Shown: piece by piece, positions 1-36,158 of the stretch
How the letters are laid out: each line of letters starts with the position of its first letter
Numbering within the stretch: the stretch's first letter is position 1
Assembly: GCA_903862655.1 (NCBI GenBank)
Contig: CAIOZA010000031.1
Location: forward strand, 1-43,123
Length of the DNA stretch: 43,123 nucleotides
Reading direction: 5' to 3'
Source of the DNA: an uncultured Ignavibacteria bacterium
GTDB lineage: Bacteria; Bacteroidota; Ignavibacteria; Kapaibacteriales; UBA2268
Position numbers and translations under genes: made by a program
The notes under the pieces: model-generated
What the model was told of the DNA's origin: nothing
What the model saw: the letters and a program-made list of their open reading frames with translations, nothing else
Databases searched by the model: none

Positions 1-384
1 ATTAGTTATATTTATGGGTTTGCAGCATTAACTGGACTATCCATTTCACCAGATAATACGATGATATGTGCTGGTAGAGATGATGACATAACAATGCTTC
101 ATGCCCGCTGGGAAACAACAGGTGTTAAATCGGACGAAGATCCCACCCCAACTTTTATGTATCCTAATCCCACCTCTGATTTCATTGAAATATCGGTAGG
201 GGCAAACGGCCGTCCGCCTTTACAAAGGGATGTGAGGATATATAATGTCTATGGGCAGAATGTGTCATCAACTTGGGCGGGTTTAGAACCCGCCCCTACA
301 ATACGAATCGATGTCTCCGGTTTAGCTCCAGGTATGTATTTTGTGCGGATTGGGGATAGAGTTGGGAAGTTTGTGAAGTTGTAA
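1..384 (+). CDS. C-terminal end of a T9SS-secreted protein (5' partial)
   Basis: The reading frame is open from base 1, so the 5' end lies outside the window and the ATG at 61 is internal. The visible 127 residues start with a propeller-like strand pattern (ISPDNTMICAGRDD) and end in a type IX secretion type A sorting domain: YPNPTSDFIEIS, then RIYNVYGQ, then the hallmark GMYFVRIGDRVGKFVKL at the very end. Such domains direct export across the outer membrane and are cleaved there. Two palindromic DNA elements sit in frame in this domain, at 196-223 and 271-299. The protein's function cannot be read from this fragment. The sorting-domain call is firm. The propeller call rests on one repeat only. 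Confidence 0.85.
   Translation: MSYIYGFAALTGLSISPDNTMICAGRDDDITMLHARWETTGVKSDEDPTPTFMYPNPTSDFIEISVGANGRPPLQRDVRIYNVYGQNVSSTWAGLEPAPTIRIDVSGLAPGMYFVRIGDRVGKFVKL
196..223 (+). repeat. In-frame 28-bp palindromic element, slot 1, diverged copy
   Basis: Imperfect palindrome with arms GTAGGGGCAAACGG and CCGTCCGCCTTTAC. It is read as VGANGRPPL in the sorting domain. It is a mutated version of the element at 5360-5387, 7282-7309 and 33238-33265, and lies at the same place in the protein, between FIEIS and the DVRIYN strand. Confidence 0.85.
271..299 (-). repeat. In-frame palindromic element (GGGCGGGTT type), slot 2, inverted polarity
   Basis: Inner arms GGGCGGGTT and AACCCGCCC surround TAG. The right end is intact (CCCCTAC), the left end is worn (ACTT for GTAA). 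It is read as WAGLEPAPT. The element at 34714-34742 is the same type. Relative to the coding direction this copy is inverted: its core reads GGGTTTAGAACCC, while the other reads GGGTTCTAAACCC in the coding sense. Confidence 0.8.
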
Positions 385-3472: not shown

Positions 3473-5557
3473 ATGAAAGCACGTTTAATCTTTTTGTTTG
3501 TGATTCTGTTTTCTCTCTCGGCTAAAGCACAGAATTTCTGGGAACCACTTAACGGACCTTTTGGGGGATATTTCCAGGGTTTTATCAGTACAGGTAATTA
3601 TATTATTACCTACACAGAAAATTCTATAATCAGATCGTCAGATAATGCAGTTACTTGGGAAACTATAACACCCAATGTTTCAAGTAAAGGATTTTATAAA
3701 ATTACTAAAACTGTTTCCGGAAAGCTATTCCTTTTTAGTGTTGACAGCAATTATACTGCACAGATTTTCTTATCTATTGATGAAGGAAAAACATGGGAAT
3801 ATTTTATGGATAACATTGATCGAGGTAACAATTATATTACAGATAATTATCTTTATGGAACAGTTGGAACATCAAATGATTCATGGTTAGCGATTCAAAG
3901 GAGAAATTTTACAGATACAAACTCAATTTTTATCGAACTATCACATCCCTTGGGTAGGGGATTTTATGTAGATAAAAATGATAATATATATGATTTTGGT
4001 CGTAATTCAATTAGATTATCATCAAATGGCGGTATATCATTTGATACCATTAGAAAAGATATTAATAATAATTATGAATACAGTTTTGATATAAATGAGA
4101 ATCTATGTTTTTATTCATCAAATAATTCAAAGTCTACTATAACCTTCACAGAAAATCACGGGATATCCTGGGATTCTGTAAATATTGATTATAACATCTC
4201 AAGAATTTATCCTAAAAATAAAAATGAAATATATTTTGTTGTGTATGACACTGTGTATGCTGGCATTTTTTTATTGGAGAATTTTGATACAAAAAAAATA
4301 ACAAAAGTATCTGCACCTGAAGAAAATAATTTTAAAATTTCAGGAATCCTTTTTACAAATGAACTTACGTTCGCCTATAAATCTAGTGGAATTGTATATT
4401 ACACAAATGATAAATATTTGAAAAAATTAGATATTCTAAAAAATTCTGCTGCATTGGAGAATCAAGTAGTCTGTGGCGATAAACTAGCTCTATGTGGAAG
4501 TGAGACCTTTGTCTTCCATAATTTATATAAAATTACAAGTAATGAGGTCGATCTGGTTGACGACGAAGGAATTAATCAATTTCAAGAGGTTTTCATATCT
4601 TTAAAGGATAATGTTTGGATTACAAAAATAGGAATGGCAGGTCTTTCAACCAGGTTTTCGACAGATAGATGTAACGGATTCAAATATTTTGACTTTTATG
4701 ATTCTCCGACATCTATGGCTGAAAACAGCAAAAATGAAATGTACTTTCTCAATTGGTACGGGAGCAGATTAGCAAAATCAACCGATCAACTAGAGTGGAC
4801 AACCGTAAAGGATAAGTTCTTCGCTGATTGGGTTTTTGTAAATAATCAGGATGAAATTGTTCTTTTAAAAAGATATTCCGATACTGTTAATATTACAAAG
4901 CTTGACCCGGCCACATATAATACACTATTCGAAAAAAGTCTATTATTAAAGAATAGGCTTGTTGATTTCCTTATAAGTAAAGATGATTCCTACTATTTTT
5001 TGACCGACAGTCTCCTCTACCGCAGTGCGGACGAAGGTACAAGCTTCACAGTAGTCTTAGATGCGGGTCCGGTCAGAAAACTCCGCGATATACTCGAAAT
5101 GAATAATATGCTGTTCATCGCTACGAATAATGGAGTGATAACATCTGATGACAAGGGCGCAACCTGGACAGATGTGAACTCTGGTCTAAACTCGTTCGAC
5201 TGCAGGAGCATCGGCAAAACCGGAGATAATACTCTCTATCTGGGTTTAGCAGGGGACGTTGTCTATCGCAGTGTTAAATACACAAGCGTTGAGGAAAATA
5301 TCGTGCAAGATCAGATAGTGTGCACTCCAAATCCTGTCACCGATTTCATAGAAATATCCGTAGGGGCGAACGGCCGTTCGCCCTTACAAAGCGATGTGAG
5401 GATATACAATCTATTCGGACAGATACAGTCCGCCGTTAACACCACCCCAGCCCTCCCCGCTAGCGGTGAGGGAGTAAGAATCGATGTGTCCGGTTTAGCA
5501 CCGGGGATGTACTTTGTGAGGGTTGGGGATAAGGTTGGGAAGTTTATAAAATTATAG
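3473..5557 (+). CDS. Secreted T9SS protein with Asp-box (BNR) propeller repeats
   Basis: The 694 residues open with a signal peptide (MKARLIFLFVILFSLSAKAQ, cleavage near residue 20). The body contains repeated Asp-box motifs of the S-x-D-x-G-x-T-W kind: SSDNAVTWET, SIDEGKTWEY, SSNGGISFDT, TENHGISWDS, SADEGTSFTV and SDDKGATWTD. This suggests one or two sialidase/sortilin-type beta-propellers, used for glycan or protein binding. It ends in a T9SS type A sorting domain (about residue 620 onward; FIEIS, RIYNLFGQ, GMYFVRVGDKVGKFIKL). It is the first gene of a likely operon, with the next start 12 bases after its stop. The C-terminal domain is nearly identical in DNA to that of the next gene although the bodies are unrelated. 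No catalytic residues are recognisable. Confidence 0.88.
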   Translation: MKARLIFLFVILFSLSAKAQNFWEPLNGPFGGYFQGFISTGNYIITYTENSIIRSSDNAVTWETITPNVSSKGFYKITKTVSGKLFLFSVDSNYTAQIFLSIDEGKTWEYFMDNIDRGNNYITDNYLYGTVGTSNDSWLAIQRRNFTDTNSIFIELSHPLGRGFYVDKNDNIYDFGRNSIRLSSNGGISFDTIRKDINNNYEYSFDINENLCFYSSNNSKSTITFTENHGISWDSVNIDYNISRIYPKNKNEIYFVVYDTVYAGIFLLENFDTKKITKVSAPEENNFKISGILFTNELTFAYKSSGIVYYTNDKYLKKLDILKNSAALENQVVCGDKLALCGSETFVFHNLYKITSNEVDLVDDEGINQFQEVFISLKDNVWITKIGMAGLSTRFSTDRCNGFKYFDFYDSPTSMAENSKNEMYFLNWYGSRLAKSTDQLEWTTVKDKFFADWVFVNNQDEIVLLKRYSDTVNITKLDPATYNTLFEKSLLLKNRLVDFLISKDDSYYFLTDSLLYRSADEGTSFTVVLDAGPVRKLRDILEMNNMLFIATNNGVITSDDKGATWTDVNSGLNSFDCRSIGKTGDNTLYLGLAGDVVYRSVKYTSVEENIVQDQIVCTPNPVTDFIEISVGANGRSPLQSDVRIYNLFGQIQSAVNTTPALPASGEGVRIDVSGLAPGMYFVRVGDKVGKFIKL
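5360..5387 (+). repeat. In-frame 28-bp palindromic element, slot 1
   Basis: The arms GTAGGGGCGAACGG and CCGTTCGCCCTTAC form a 28-bp palindrome with one mismatch near the right end (CTTAC for CCTAC). It is read as VGANGRSPL. The same 28 bases recur at 7282-7309 and, in coding orientation, at 33238-33265. Confidence 0.92.
5451..5472 (+). repeat. In-frame palindromic element (CCCTCCCCGCT type), slot 2
   Basis: CCCTCCCCGCT pairs with AGCGGTGAGGG (one mismatch). It is preceded by ACACCACCCCAG and followed by AGTAAG, and is read as PALPASGEG. The layout (ACACC, ACCCC, palindrome, GGGAG) resembles the intergenic elements at 3243-3283 and 32896-32935. Confidence 0.75.
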
Positions 5558-5568
5558 AAGGGGATAAA

Positions 5569-7479
5569 ATGAAAATGAAATACTTAATAGTTATCGTCAC
5601 CCTACTGGGATATGCTTTCACAACAGCTCAATCCATTACTGCAATGGATAACAATTCGGCTAAAATCTCATCAAATGCAGAATTAATGTTTAACATTGAC
5701 AGAAAAACTGGTTTGTTGCCAACGACAATGAAGAACTCTCCTTATTCTTATTCAATCAGGAATCCATTTTCATCCGATTCAGGAACGGGGAATACACATT
5801 CCGGCATAATGAATATCAGCTTGAAAACTGATACATCAAAGATCGAAACAATGCTGATTAGCTCCGATCAGCCATTCTTGGTATTCAAATCACTTGCTGG
5901 AGCCGGAAAGCAGAATCCTTTTCCAAATTATGTAACTAGTGGTAATGTTTTCAACCTTACAAAAGGTAATTATTTAGATCTGGATTTGAAATTTATTCCT
6001 CCAAAAACAATGAAACCCGGCTATTATACAGCAAATTTACTATTTACTGCAAAAGAATTAAATGACAGCGGTTATGTTAATGTTGATGTACCGATTTGGA
6101 TTTTCTATAATCCTTATGAATGGTTCGATTCTACATCAAAACCGGGAATAGAGTTATTTTTAATTTCAAATGATAAGGATACTGCAAATCTGATATTTGG
6201 ATCGGGATACAAAGCGAGTTTAAAACCTGATACAAGTTATGGCGAAGCGTATTATGATTTTGGGATGCATGTTTATTTCCAGGCAAGATTTTTTATTGAT
6301 AGTTTATATGAGAGTATTCCATTTGGAATATATGATTTTTCCCCAAATGATGAGAAACCATATTCAAAATCTAGAGATATCAGAACAATTGAATACGAAT
6401 CAGCACCTCTTATTTATCATGTAAAGTTCTTTTCTAAGGCAACAGTTTATCCACTGAAATTAGAATATGAAGATATCAATTTTCCACAAAATTCAACATT
6501 TTTATTATATGAAAGTCTTGATTCAAATTCTAAATTCAAACTGGACATGAGGGAAATAGCACAAATCCAGCCTTCAAGACATCAATTTATAATTAGTGAT
6601 ACATCAATAAAAGAATTTTATATTATTTATTACAGAAACAAAAAGCTAACAATAAGTACAGATGACCCCAAGCCAATGAAACTTCAATTTTGCCCTGGAG
6701 ATAGTTTCGATTTGGCTTTCAAAACTTATATACTATATAACACAGGAAATGAATTTATAGCAGAATTGTCAGACACAAACGGCTCATGGTCATCGAATGT
6801 CAAAATTATAGGTAAAAGTAAAAGTATTTATCAAGGTAAAATTAAGGTAGGAATACCAACTGATGTTACTGAAGGTGAGAGTTACAAAATAAGAGTTAGA
6901 AGTACTGATCCTGCGTCAATCGGGGAAGAAAATCAAACAACAATTAATTTCTATCCTGGAGTACCTTTATTAGTCAATGATACAGTTCTGAAAAAAAGTG
7001 AGGTCATTTCAATTAGGCCTGTGTCTCCCAAAAATTCAACATTTTATCTTTATGATTCACCTGTTGGTGGCAATCTGCTTCAGTCAGCAAGAAATTATTT
7101 CTCATTATATGTTTATAAAGATACAGTTGTTTATATAGAAGCACAAAGTTTAACAACTGAATGTAAGACACATAAAAGAGCCAGATTATCTATTCATTTA
7201 ATCACAGATGTACCGGAAATCATAAGTGCTGAGTCTTTTCTTCTGTCTCCCAGCCCAGCCACAGATTTCATCGAAATATCCGTAGGGGCGAACGGCCGTT
7301 CGCCCTTACAAAGCGATGTGAGGATATACAATCTATTCGGACAGATACAGTCCGCCGTTAACCCCACCCCAGCCCTCCCCGCAAGCGGTGAGGGAGTAAG
7401 AATCGATGTGTCCGGTTTGGCTCCCGGGATGTATTTTATGAGGGTTGGGGATAAAGTATGCAAATTTGTGAAAATATAG
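5569..7479 (+). CDS. Secreted T9SS protein of unknown function
   Basis: A 636-residue protein with a signal peptide (MKMKYLIVIVTLLGYAFTTAQ, cleavage near residue 21), about 530 residues of beta-strand-like sequence without a motif I recognise, and a C-terminal type A sorting domain (FIEIS, RIYNLFGQ, GMYFMRVGDKVCKFVKI). Stretches such as VDVPIWIFYNPYEWFD and the strand-turn patterns suggest stacked immunoglobulin-like domains, but this is only an impression. The start is supported by AAGGGG seven bases upstream. It lies 12 bases after the Asp-box gene, so the two are probably cotranscribed and exported together. In its sorting domain a cysteine (DKVCKF) replaces the usual glycine or serine. 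Confidence 0.82.
   Translation: MKMKYLIVIVTLLGYAFTTAQSITAMDNNSAKISSNAELMFNIDRKTGLLPTTMKNSPYSYSIRNPFSSDSGTGNTHSGIMNISLKTDTSKIETMLISSDQPFLVFKSLAGAGKQNPFPNYVTSGNVFNLTKGNYLDLDLKFIPPKTMKPGYYTANLLFTAKELNDSGYVNVDVPIWIFYNPYEWFDSTSKPGIELFLISNDKDTANLIFGSGYKASLKPDTSYGEAYYDFGMHVYFQARFFIDSLYESIPFGIYDFSPNDEKPYSKSRDIRTIEYESAPLIYHVKFFSKATVYPLKLEYEDINFPQNSTFLLYESLDSNSKFKLDMREIAQIQPSRHQFIISDTSIKEFYIIYYRNKKLTISTDDPKPMKLQFCPGDSFDLAFKTYILYNTGNEFIAELSDTNGSWSSNVKIIGKSKSIYQGKIKVGIPTDVTEGESYKIRVRSTDPASIGEENQTTINFYPGVPLLVNDTVLKKSEVISIRPVSPKNSTFYLYDSPVGGNLLQSARNYFSLYVYKDTVVYIEAQSLTTECKTHKRARLSIHLITDVPEIISAESFLLSPSPATDFIEISVGANGRSPLQSDVRIYNLFGQIQSAVNPTPALPASGEGVRIDVSGLAPGMYFMRVGDKVCKFVKI
7282..7309 (+). repeat. In-frame 28-bp palindromic element, slot 1
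   Basis: Identical to 5360-5387, including the asymmetric CTTAC right end. It is read as VGANGRSPL. Confidence 0.92.
7373..7394 (+). repeat. In-frame palindromic element (CCCTCCCCGC type), slot 2
   Basis: CCCTCCCCGC and AGCGGTGAGGG around a central A; one base differs from 5451-5472. It is read as PALPASGEG. Confidence 0.75.
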
Positions 7480-33082: not shown

Positions 33083-34534
33083 TTATATTTTCACAAATTT
33101 ACTCACTCTATCTCCAATCCTTACAAAATACATGCCCGGAGCTAGACTGGATACATCTACCCGTAGTGGCAATTCATGAATTGCCACTACAGACAATACG
33201 GCTTGCCCATAAACATTGAAGATTTTGAATTCGCTTTGTAAGGGCGAACGGCCGTTCGCCCCTACAGATATTTCTATGAAATCAGAGACGGGATTGGGAG
33301 AAATCTTGATCGCTGCCTGATCTCCTTGATTATCCTCTGTCTCAACCCCGGTGGCTAAATATAGTGTCTTATACGATATTCTATATAAACCTCTCTTATC
33401 ATCTGTTAAGAAAATATAGTCGCTATCAAGCGAATTTTTATACAGAACAATACTCCCAATACTGTCCACAGTATAGGTATTAAGATATCGATAATCTAGA
33501 ATTTCGTGTACATTCAGTCTGTTAGCTATGATTACAAAGAAATGTTTATCTGATGTGGTGTTATAAAGTTGAATTTCATGATTAGTAATGTATCTGCTTT
33601 GAGCTTTGTAAACTATTGGATCTTTTGTTCCAACATTATACTTATAAATGTTGTTGAGCCACGAAAAGTAAATATGTGAATTATCATTTTCAAAAAAAGC
33701 TGAGAAAACAGGCAAGGAGAATCCTTTCTCAGTAGAGGTACCCTCATATTTACTTCCGGAAGACCTTCTTTCATGATATGTAATATTATTTAAAGTATCA
33801 TTTGGAAATTTATAAAAGTAATTGCCATCCATTTCAAAATTGCTGTAAGATCCGGGATAACCGCCCTGAGAGTTCCAAATTCTACTTGATATATTAAAAT
33901 ACAAAATATTCCCCGTAGAATTTTCTATCAAAATATTAGATGTTCCATCAAATAACTTTTTGGTGATCCAAATTGAATCTTGTTTAGTACTAATATTAGT
34001 CATACCAGAAGTTGCACCTCCATCGAAAGGACCATTACTATGAGAATATTGGAAATTGAAAATACTGAACAGCTCTTTAGTATTTGTCCTGTAATTCAAA
34101 TAAATTGAATAGATGTCACTAAAGTCTGAGATATAAAAATCATCAGGCAATCCGGTTTTTAAAATTAGTGAATCAATCAAATTGCCGGATTCTAAATCGT
34201 AAATGTAAAAATCCCAATATGTTATGTTGGGTACTGAATACAAACCCGTACAATATGTCTTTCCATCAGTTGATAGAAAAATCCAATTTGAAAAATGACT
34301 TTTTGTAGAATCCGGAATTATCTTTCTGCTCCAGATGCTGTCCCCTGTTGCATAGTCCCACTTACTGATCGTAGAATTGAAGTCAAGAGTGTATATAGAT
34401 TTATTATCTTCCGATATTACAAAATTAACAATTCTCGTTGTTTCGGAAGATAATTTCTCGGCGTTGCCGGCCTGTTTCCACTGGCTATTCAACGAAATGA
34501 ATGAAAGAAACATAAGAAAGATAACTTTTTTCAT
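33083..34534 (-). CDS. T9SS-secreted protein with propeller-like body
   Basis: 483 residues: a signal peptide (MKKVIFLMFLSFISLNS), then strands of WD40-like type (VISEDNKSIYTLDFNSTISKWD, then SIWSRKII), then a long stretch with no clear domain, then a type A sorting domain (NPVSDFIEIS, KIFNVYGQ, GMYFVRIGDRVSKFVKI). The two palindromic elements in this domain are of different type (33238-33265 and 33163-33190). It lies 10 bases downstream of another T9SS gene, so the two form an operon. Function unknown. The propeller assignment is weak because only the first repeat is clear. Confidence 0.83.
   Translation of the reverse strand: MKKVIFLMFLSFISLNSQWKQAGNAEKLSSETTRIVNFVISEDNKSIYTLDFNSTISKWDYATGDSIWSRKIIPDSTKSHFSNWIFLSTDGKTYCTGLYSVPNITYWDFYIYDLESGNLIDSLILKTGLPDDFYISDFSDIYSIYLNYRTNTKELFSIFNFQYSHSNGPFDGGATSGMTNISTKQDSIWITKKLFDGTSNILIENSTGNILYFNISSRIWNSQGGYPGSYSNFEMDGNYFYKFPNDTLNNITYHERRSSGSKYEGTSTEKGFSLPVFSAFFENDNSHIYFSWLNNIYKYNVGTKDPIVYKAQSRYITNHEIQLYNTTSDKHFFVIIANRLNVHEILDYRYLNTYTVDSIGSIVLYKNSLDSDYIFLTDDKRGLYRISYKTLYLATGVETEDNQGDQAAIKISPNPVSDFIEISVGANGRSPLQSEFKIFNVYGQAVLSVVAIHELPLRVDVSSLAPGMYFVRIGDRVSKFVKI
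33163..33190 (-). repeat. In-frame 28-bp perfect palindrome, slot 2
   Basis: Arms GTAGTGGCAATTCA and TGAATTGCCACTAC are exactly complementary. It has the same length and the same outer bases (GTAG, CTAC) as the slot-1 element, but an unrelated core. It is read as VVAIHELPL. Confidence 0.9.
33238..33265 (-). repeat. In-frame 28-bp palindromic element, slot 1
   Basis: In coding orientation it is base for base the same as 5360-5387 and 7282-7309, with the CTTAC asymmetry on the same side. It is read as VGANGRSPL. Confidence 0.92.
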
Positions 34535-34544
34535 GATTTCATCT

Positions 34545-36158
34545 TTAAATTTTCACAAATTTGCTTACATTATCGCCGATGCGGACGAAATACATACCCG
34601 GCGCCAAGCCGGAGACATTGATTCTAACTTCCCCTTCAAACTGAAGGGGTGGCAACGAAGTTGACGGGGTAGTCTGTATTCGTCCAAACACATCATATAT
34701 CCTCACTTCGCCTGTAAGGGCGGGTTTAGAACCCGCCCCTACGGATATTTCTATGAAATCTGTTGCTGGGCTGGGAGAAATACTCAATCCGCTTTCATCA
34801 CCTGTTTCTTTTACATCACTAGTTGTCGGATCATAGTAGTATTTTCTTGCAAATTTTACTTTATTTATCAGTTCTGACAGATCAGCTGTTGAGCCATCTG
34901 CTTCAGCTCCCTTTGAGGGCATTGCAAATACTATAAGGACTGCTATTCTTGTTGATTCACCCGGCAGAAAAGTGAAAGGTCCTGTGAACATAGAACCGCG
35001 ATAGTCTTTAGATCCGGCATCACCATCAAAGTTCTTTCCTGCCATAAAATTATACCTGTCAATATCTGTATTTTGATCTTCAGCTACACTTGCACTCCTG
35101 AATCCTGACATACCAATCTGATTTTCGGGTGGGATGAGTGTATTCTGATGTTTAATGTTTTTATTAGCATCAACTGTAGGAGTTTCTATAAATGAAACAC
35201 CGATATATCCGAATCCTTTGCCTAGTTCCCCCATATCAGTTCCAGTCCAGCCGATAAACAAATTCAATGATGGATCTTCCTTATAATATCTCAACCTGTC
35301 ATTTCCGGCTCCCTTAATGTTTGAACCACCAAAAAGGTCAATATCATAAATTCCGCCAAAGTAACAGTCCGAGAGAGTGTCTTTTGATGTATTTGTAATA
35401 GCATAACTCAGGATTATAGCATCAGACAATGGCTTGTTTTTTGTCCACGAGAAGATTCTTTGGTCAAACTGCAGTCTTAGAGGATAACCCATATTCCTTC
35501 TATTCTGGGACCCGCCATCATAAACAGACAGGTCAGTATCCTTGAATGTAGATATTACATCTTCATCGGAAAAGATATTTGGTCCGAGAGGATATTCAGC
35601 GCGGTTTCTTCTTGTAGTATCTTTTACATAATCTGCCGAATAGGTCAAATATGGATAGATTGTATTGTCTCTTCGCCATAGTGGCCAGGCAGGTCCATCT
35701 GTAGGATCATTTGGATTACCATTCAAATGATCAAAATCAGTGGAAAAATATATTCTGTATTTATTGAAGCTATCAGTACTAATCGTGTCGCAGTCTTCAA
35801 TTCTTCCCGGTACAAACCAAGACCAACCGTTGTTGGGATTATACGTAATCGTAACCATTTTTTTGTATTTGGAAGAATCAGGCAGATACTTCACTGCAGC
35901 AAACCACACACCTGAAGCAAACATATAGTAGTTATCAGTTCCTCTGGGCCATATCAAACCACCCTTATTATGTAGCATATCTATTCCGAATATGCCGCAA
36001 TTCATATTAAAGAAATCGACATTACTAACAGTGTTTTTCTGCAGATCGAATTGACCAGAAGTTTTCCGCTGGATATAATCAGGTTTATCGGATGCAATGA
36101 GTGCGTTAGAAAGAATCAAGAAAGAGCCAAATGCAAAAAGTAAGCATAACATTTTCAT
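34545..36158 (-). CDS. Large T9SS-secreted protein of unknown function
   Basis: 537 residues with a signal peptide (cleavage near residue 22, NALIASD). The body contains GGLIWPRGTDNYYMFASGVWF, WSWFVPGR, PAWPLWRRDN and GGIYDIDLFGG, a pattern I have met in secreted proteins of this lineage but cannot name. The end is a type A sorting domain (SPATDFIEIS, VRIYDVFGR, GMYFVRIGDNVSKFVKI), interrupted by two palindromic elements. It is the first gene of a two-gene operon with 33083-34534. An alanine-rich, aromatic-rich N-terminal half suggests a structural or binding role, but this is a guess. Confidence 0.83.
   Translation of the reverse strand: MKMLCLLFAFGSFLILSNALIASDKPDYIQRKTSGQFDLQKNTVSNVDFFNMNCGIFGIDMLHNKGGLIWPRGTDNYYMFASGVWFAAVKYLPDSSKYKKMVTITYNPNNGWSWFVPGRIEDCDTISTDSFNKYRIYFSTDFDHLNGNPNDPTDGPAWPLWRRDNTIYPYLTYSADYVKDTTRRNRAEYPLGPNIFSDEDVISTFKDTDLSVYDGGSQNRRNMGYPLRLQFDQRIFSWTKNKPLSDAIILSYAITNTSKDTLSDCYFGGIYDIDLFGGSNIKGAGNDRLRYYKEDPSLNLFIGWTGTDMGELGKGFGYIGVSFIETPTVDANKNIKHQNTLIPPENQIGMSGFRSASVAEDQNTDIDRYNFMAGKNFDGDAGSKDYRGSMFTGPFTFLPGESTRIAVLIVFAMPSKGAEADGSTADLSELINKVKFARKYYYDPTTSDVKETGDESGLSISPSPATDFIEISVGAGSKPALTGEVRIYDVFGRIQTTPSTSLPPLQFEGEVRINVSGLAPGMYFVRIGDNVSKFVKI
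34631..34649 (-). repeat. In-frame palindromic element (CCCCTTCA type), slot 2
   Basis: CCCCTTCA and TGAAGGGG around AAC. It is read as PPLQFEGE in the protein. It is a further sequence type at the same slot, with a GTCAACTTCG-bearing flank. Confidence 0.75.
34714..34742 (-). repeat. In-frame palindromic element (GGGCGGGTT type), slot 1
   Basis: Arms GTAAGGGCGGGTT and AACCCGCCCCTAC (one mismatch) around TAG. It is read as VGAGSKPALT. The outer bases match the GTAGGGGC element and the core matches 271-299. Confidence 0.9.

Follow-up and report, generated by a model that had tools for sequence, protein, structure and literature searches.

The window analysed here, a stretch of 43,123 nucleotides, corresponds to contig C31 in the 4.07-Mb assembly of an uncultured Ignavibacteria bacterium (own genome, G000). 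Five of its genes encode proteins with a C-terminal domain that matches Por_Secre_tail/TIGR04183 (TIGR04183/PF18962) above the curated cut-off and was hence assigned to the T9SS type A sorting domains (CTDs). Each of these domains carries an in-frame palindrome between DFIEIS and (V/F)(R/K)I(Y/F), which is translated into VGANGRSPL, VGANGRPPL or VGAGSKPAL. A first-pass annotation had reported a 28-bp palindrome, GTAGGGGCGAACGGCCGTTCGCCCTTAC, inserted in frame as VGANGRSPL or VGANGRPPL at the same point of four sorting domains, and inspection of the sequence bore out its positions and reading frame: the 28-mer is identical at 5360-5387 (+), 7282-7309 (+) and 33238-33265 (−), a worn copy at 196-223 (+) has three mismatches, and a fifth palindrome at 34714-34742 (−), GTAGGGGCGGGTTCTAAACCCGCCCTTAC, shares the ends of the 28-mer and differs in its core. 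The accompanying view of one palindrome at one site had to be abandoned, as the same five domains contain a second palindromic site that had been overlooked, and many unrelated palindromes occupy the two. With the sites termed S1 and S2, the window contains the following features:

157-381, + strand: sorting domain (T9SS type A, inserted subfamily) of a gene truncated by the window start
196-223, + strand: S1, worn type A palindrome, VGANGRPPL
275-299, + strand: S2, type e palindrome GGGCGGGTTTAGAACCCGCCCCTAC
5321-5554, + strand: sorting domain of gene 3473-5557 (profile match)
5360-5387, + strand: S1, type A palindrome, VGANGRSPL
5451-5472, + strand: S2, type c palindrome CCCTCCCCGCTAGCGGTGAGGG
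7243-7476, + strand: sorting domain of gene 5569-7479 (profile match)
7282-7309, + strand: S1, type A palindrome, VGANGRSPL
7373-7394, + strand: S2, type c palindrome
33086-33304, − strand: sorting domain of gene 33083-34534 (profile match)
33238-33265, − strand: S1, type A palindrome, VGANGRSPL
33163-33190, − strand: S2, type a palindrome GTAGTGGCAATTCATGAATTGCCACTAC, perfect
34548-34781, − strand: sorting domain of gene 34545-36158 (profile match)
34714-34742, − strand: S1, type B palindrome, VGAGSKPAL
34631-34649, − strand: S2, type g palindrome CCCCTTCAGTTTGAAGGGG, LPPLQFEGE

The 25 bp of the type e element at 275-299 recur on the + strand of the S1 element at 34718-34742, so that the two stand in opposite coding orientation. 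GTAGGGGC alone occurs six times in the window, compared with 0.28 expected occurrences, and relative to the common GTAGGGGC...GCCCCTAC both arms of the palindrome at 33163-33190 are altered; a type a palindrome elsewhere in the genome (G000:C86:9121-9148) likewise has both arms changed together and is still perfect. Rfam gave no match in the window, and a known RNA family was therefore rejected.

Two loop sites and their palindromes

Each CTD was split into a prefix (PNPxxDFIEI), S1, a middle strand (VRIYNVFGQ), S2 and a tail (IDVSGLAPGMYFVRIGDRVSKFVKL), with S1 corresponding to the loop between strands 2 and 3 and S2 to that between strands 4 and 5. About eight different palindromes were found at each site. 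S1 holds type A (VGANGRSPL), B (VGAGSEPAL), D (VGTRRAVSE), E (YPPLERGSGG) or F (INPMLKYG), an AT-rich palindrome, or the 27-bp type C, which is translated in another frame as CRGEVTSPL, while the peptides at S2 are VGAIHELPL, VGVQNLEPL, TPTLPASREG, DTPPWKGG, GLEPAP, TLSTSGEG, CSADTPASGG or LPPLQFEG. Every one of these types is palindromic at the DNA level, with individual copies sometimes worn. Eight CTDs of the own genome lack inserts and have short loops at both sites, so that simple insertion of 28 bp does not describe the change. Type B was encountered at S1 in forward and inverted orientation as well as at S2, and the type a palindrome GTAGGGGCAATTCATGAATTGCCCCTAC, an S2 element in the own genome, is located at S1 in two relatives (G009 and G041). 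The flanks named for the type B and type A REPs are GAAATATCC and TGTCT. One further CTD (L108, ending at base 916) has a 13-residue S1 and the same CAAAGCGAT flank without a palindrome (YISVDSKEALQSD), and may either predate the arrival of a palindrome or have lost one by decay.

Distribution within the genome and among relatives

Allowing up to three mismatches, the 28-mer was found at 27 places in the own genome, compared with none for the reversed control. Comparison with the CTD coordinates placed 26 of these within sorting domains, all in coding orientation, in frame and some 60-66 residues before the C-terminus; the sole exception (C84:27548) directly precedes a thioredoxin-domain-like gene. 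The search of the full genome proposed in the first-pass annotation thus returned one frame, one orientation and one point of the CTD for nearly all copies. Its further suggestion of a restriction to the secretion signal found near-complete agreement in the own genome and no support as a general rule: in relatives, 48 of 63 sites of these and similar palindromes (REPs) appeared intergenic in a simple ORF test, and several lie in RAYT genes. The type a palindrome GTAGGGGCAATTCATGAATTGCCCCTAC occurs at eight places in the own genome, all in CTDs, and the type c palindrome CCCTCCCCGCNAGCRGGGAGGG at 15, including 12 in CTDs.

The sorting-domain family numbers about 78 such domains, and the T9SS machinery of the own genome is represented by SprA, the component searched for (881 bits, C114). 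The best named matches to these CTDs in the public collection were Ignavibacteria/Bacteroidota metagenome assemblies. Other palindromes in about 0.6 Mb of stretches (overlaps included) were mostly terminator-like, and the notion of palindromes spread throughout the genome was rejected on this basis. Palindromes were also noted at the following loci: a GTAG-type palindrome outside all CTDs, AGCCCCGTAGGGGCGACATCTCTTTCGCCCCTACGGGGCT, at G000:C122:32551-32578 (L031); a type F palindrome, TCAACCCCATACTTAAGTATGGGGTTGA, just past a CTD gene near 7366 (L125, G000:C36); and, in a relative, type A palindromes repeated every 235 bp, apparently outside long ORFs (L276/L083, G005:C267:5369, 5604 and 5839).

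Palindromes, called at a hairpin score of at least 8 and centred in the site, were then counted in 143 CTDs from the own genome and its relatives. S1 contained a strong palindrome in 82 and S2 in 46 of these domains, whereas the middle strand contained none. Hairpins were present in 12 of 547 upstream 45-nt windows, and the resulting Fisher values of 3e-53 (S1) and 6e-24 (S2) overstate certainty, as the relatives had been picked by CTD profile match and copies within a genome are non-independent; the middle-strand contrast, drawn within the same domains, is independent of both the choice of relatives and copy kinship. Synonymous recoding of the same proteins yields expected numbers of 3.3 (S1) and 2.6 (S2), and chance palindromes dictated by the protein sequence were rejected on comparing 3.3 with the 82 observed. 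The S1/S2 pattern recurs with other palindromes, e.g. ATCAACCATAGGGTTAACCCTATGGTTGAT and GTAGAGACACAGCATGCTGTGTCTCTAC, in at least five other genera (G009, G032, G024, G018 and G017). A phylum-wide scan with an inserted CTD retrieved only its own family and two weak outsiders. Separately, the CTD of a rumen Bacteroidales carries TGCAGGGGCGAATAATGATTCGCCCCTGCA at S2 (L282, S2 region near 2345-2734), and the habit of placing palindromes at S1 and S2 may reach beyond the own CTD family.

Tolerance of the encoded peptides

The AlphaFold model of the CTD of gene 3473-5557, which is of moderate quality (mean pLDDT 77.6, 13 sequences), comprises seven strands (residues 8-11, 18-23, 35-38, 44-48, 61-64, 71-77 and 80-86). 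Its nearest solved folds are the T9SS CTDs 8qb1 and 8glk (Foldseek E-values 0.004-0.012), and the seven-strand sandwich is shared with the RgpB CTD (PMC4804311), an example of the T9SS type A domain (TIGR04183/PF18962); what sets the present domains apart is that repeats supply the coding sequence of loops 2-3 and 4-5. In the model, the S1 peptide (residues 23-31) and the S2 peptide (52-59) form the connections between strands 2 and 3 and strands 4 and 5 at a pLDDT of about 60, so that both inserts are placed in loops with every strand intact. The insertion-tolerant loop postulated earlier on is thereby supported.

Consistent with such tolerance, the ratio of nonsynonymous to synonymous changes is 0.84 in the nine insert codons versus 0.11-0.27 elsewhere in the domain, suggesting that the S1 peptide is almost unconstrained and that the protein tolerates the palindrome. 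If the peptide were instead under selection because the export signal is recognised through this loop, the loop length, constant at 13 residues in most S1 types, would be accounted for. However, the ratio in the insert far exceeds that in its flanks, unrelated peptides and even another reading frame are used at the same site, and neither insert touches the last pair of strands, which is regarded as the chief determinant of export (PMC4804311). We therefore regard selection on the peptide as very improbable, and a conserved motif at the peptide level was rejected on the ratio together with the frame change.

Proposed spread of the palindromes among domains

The similarity of the domains surrounding the palindromes bears on whether a single ancient insertion was duplicated along with the sorting domains and merely inherited. 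Such a history would agree with the identical position and orientation of all type A copies and with the neighbouring AAAGCGA that most of them adjoin. It is difficult to reconcile with the degree of divergence: the 25 type A copies compared are about 92% identical inside the palindrome, and outside it identity drops at once to the level found in comparisons with other types, save for a few 3' bases. Counted by hand, the type A insert shows 29 changes in 25 x 27 sites, or about 0.04 per site, and silent sites of the flanks 0.36-0.49 changes per site, which makes the palindrome roughly tenfold less diverged than the silent sites of the surrounding domain. Backbone identity is also unlinked to the S1 type, with values of.83/.70/.76 for pairs sharing it and.81/.69/.77 for pairs with different types, and related upstream proteins were found in only 5 of 342 same-S1 pairs. 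Furthermore, S1 types are paired with six or more S2 types, different palindromes have the same flanks, and type B occurs in inverted form and at either site. On the divergence contrast we rejected mere carriage along with duplicating CTDs, and inheritance from one insertion is considered improbable overall. The low divergence and the missing backbone linkage imply that the palindromes entered the domains after these had diverged; together with the near-neutral peptide, they indicate that the palindrome itself moved between existing CTDs. No pair of empty and filled alleles of one locus was found. Gene conversion with long tracts was rejected, since sharing a type does not make the flanks of a pair more similar than they are in different-type pairs.

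The palindromes might alternatively act as recombination sites at which sorting signals are attached to, or swapped between, cargo genes. While similar CTDs on unrelated proteins and the reassortment of S1 and S2 types (permutation p 0.16 with type E left out) could be read in this way, no switch of identity as expected at a cassette border was observed at the palindromes, both flanks being at background level, and no recombinase tied to S1/S2 was found. We thus give this proposal hardly any credence. A related scenario, in which the palindromes are working exchange points and REPs promote targeted replacement between dozens of CTDs, thereby spreading or diversifying export signals among unrelated proteins, is scarcely more credible.

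Another explanation invokes selection on the hairpin in DNA or mRNA, for example for translation pausing or for stabilising the mRNA 3' end of secreted proteins. The very dissimilar S1/S2 sequences, which are all strong palindromes, many of them perfect and in several genera, would fit such a role, as would the two type a copies with joint changes in both arms, although the latter fit hairpin-templated repair as well as selection. In contrast, the type A copies contain 17 broken pairs and no compensatory change, many CTDs in the same genomes lack an S1 palindrome, and eight domains have neither. A role of the hairpin therefore appears unlikely. The first-pass annotation had offered as an alternative that the DNA palindrome itself is maintained and the protein only tolerates it; an element acting as a unit within a tolerant protein is indeed the better reading, and the broken pairs and missing compensatory changes of type A lend no support to active maintenance.

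Relation to REP elements and RAYT transposases

Types A, B, C, a and b, and mostly also type D, have GTAG at their 5' foot, and in this respect look like REP elements, GTAG-footed palindromes whose mobility is attributed to RAYT transposases (PMC3733652). GTAG is preceded by CC or CT at 30 of 39 own CTD sites, which would be compatible with the cleavage by TnpA-REP at CT beside the REP (PMC8266576). Types E, F, c, d, f, g and h and the types of G032 and G024 do not have GTAG, so that a RAYT cannot be assumed for them, and they may have other origins.

The own genome contains two RAYT-like genes, L363 (G000:C6:82391-82798) and L364 (G000:C22:44324-44740), in both of which a type B palindrome follows the PNHxH motif within the coding sequence. 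L363 has a further REP copy just upstream of its start, and L364 has an in-frame stop within the match. Their best NCBIfam match is REP_Tyr_transpos at 63 bits, below the cut-off of 80. A cognate RAYT could be assigned to type B only, and none containing the type A palindrome was found in the own genome. RAYT-like genes of relatives also hold a REP after the PNHxH motif; in L171, L172, L073, L075, L367, L430, L433 and L434 this shared loop contains differing palindromes, of which one is read in another frame.

RAYT subclass 2.4 of Bacteroidetes and Cyanobacteria (PMC6006769) is characterised by an NH[IFV]H motif, a YIxNNP motif and a REP inserted in the gene. The RAYT-like genes seen here, with PNHLH/PNHIH, YIEFNP/YIENNP and a REP inside, resemble it, in the own genome as in relatives, in carrying the REP in frame after PNHxH; no mention of residence in sorting domains was found there. 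The present palindromes resemble the GTAG REPs (PMC3733652) in their length of 20-40 bp, in the GTAG foot, in the coexistence of several families in one genome and in the presence of in-frame copies within genes. The intragenic REPs of that survey are, however, scattered over unrelated genes, many of them for DNA repair, whereas here nearly all copies of a family lie at one loop of one domain family. The copies are dispersed, as in REPs, but the mainly intergenic location typical of REPs is seen only in relatives. The survey reports GTAG repeats from Proteobacteria, Cyanobacteria, Chloroflexi and PVC, not from Bacteroidetes. The Rickettsia RPEs (PMC10969869, PMC3733652) are likewise palindromic elements in frame in protein genes, but they are scattered over genes without relation to one another and many of them measure about 150 bp, compared with the 19-33 bp, many families and two loops of one domain seen here. 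As length, sequence and host all differ, RPEs serve as an analogy only.

Conclusion

Taken together, we consider it probable that REP-like mobile palindromes reside in frame at S1 and S2 of a multi-copy T9SS CTD family, and that the GTAG-ended types belong with the RAYT/TnpA-REP systems of the own genome and its relatives. The palindrome would arrive as a unit, through RAYT-type single-strand transfer at the junction of CT/CC and GTAG or, alternatively, through recombination, over a very short tract, with a palindrome that already occupies the spot. Events that keep the frame would survive because the loops tolerate change, and the approximately 78 domains would then serve as the main reservoir, with copies passing from domain to domain. 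A freely mobile element would hardly be expected to be as rare between genes as type A (1 of 27), and the exact reuse of position and orientation calls for either a target site or an exchange against the palindrome already in place.

REPs in frame, RPEs and REPs within RAYT genes have been described before. No account linking T9SS with REPs or in-frame palindromes was found in the open-access literature, and open-access papers yielded no description of a single export-signal domain in which, in several genera, many palindrome families are concentrated in two loops. These findings mean that dozens of unrelated secreted proteins bear small repeat-encoded peptides in their sorting signals, and that a class of mobile palindromes lives almost wholly in coding sequence, within one protein domain, in several genera. 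Repeat-encoded peptides of this kind (VGANGRSPL, VGAGSEPAL, IHELPL and others) should not be mistaken for conserved motifs. How REPs choose and reuse a site, and how far T9SS signals tolerate change outside the last strands, can now be tested.
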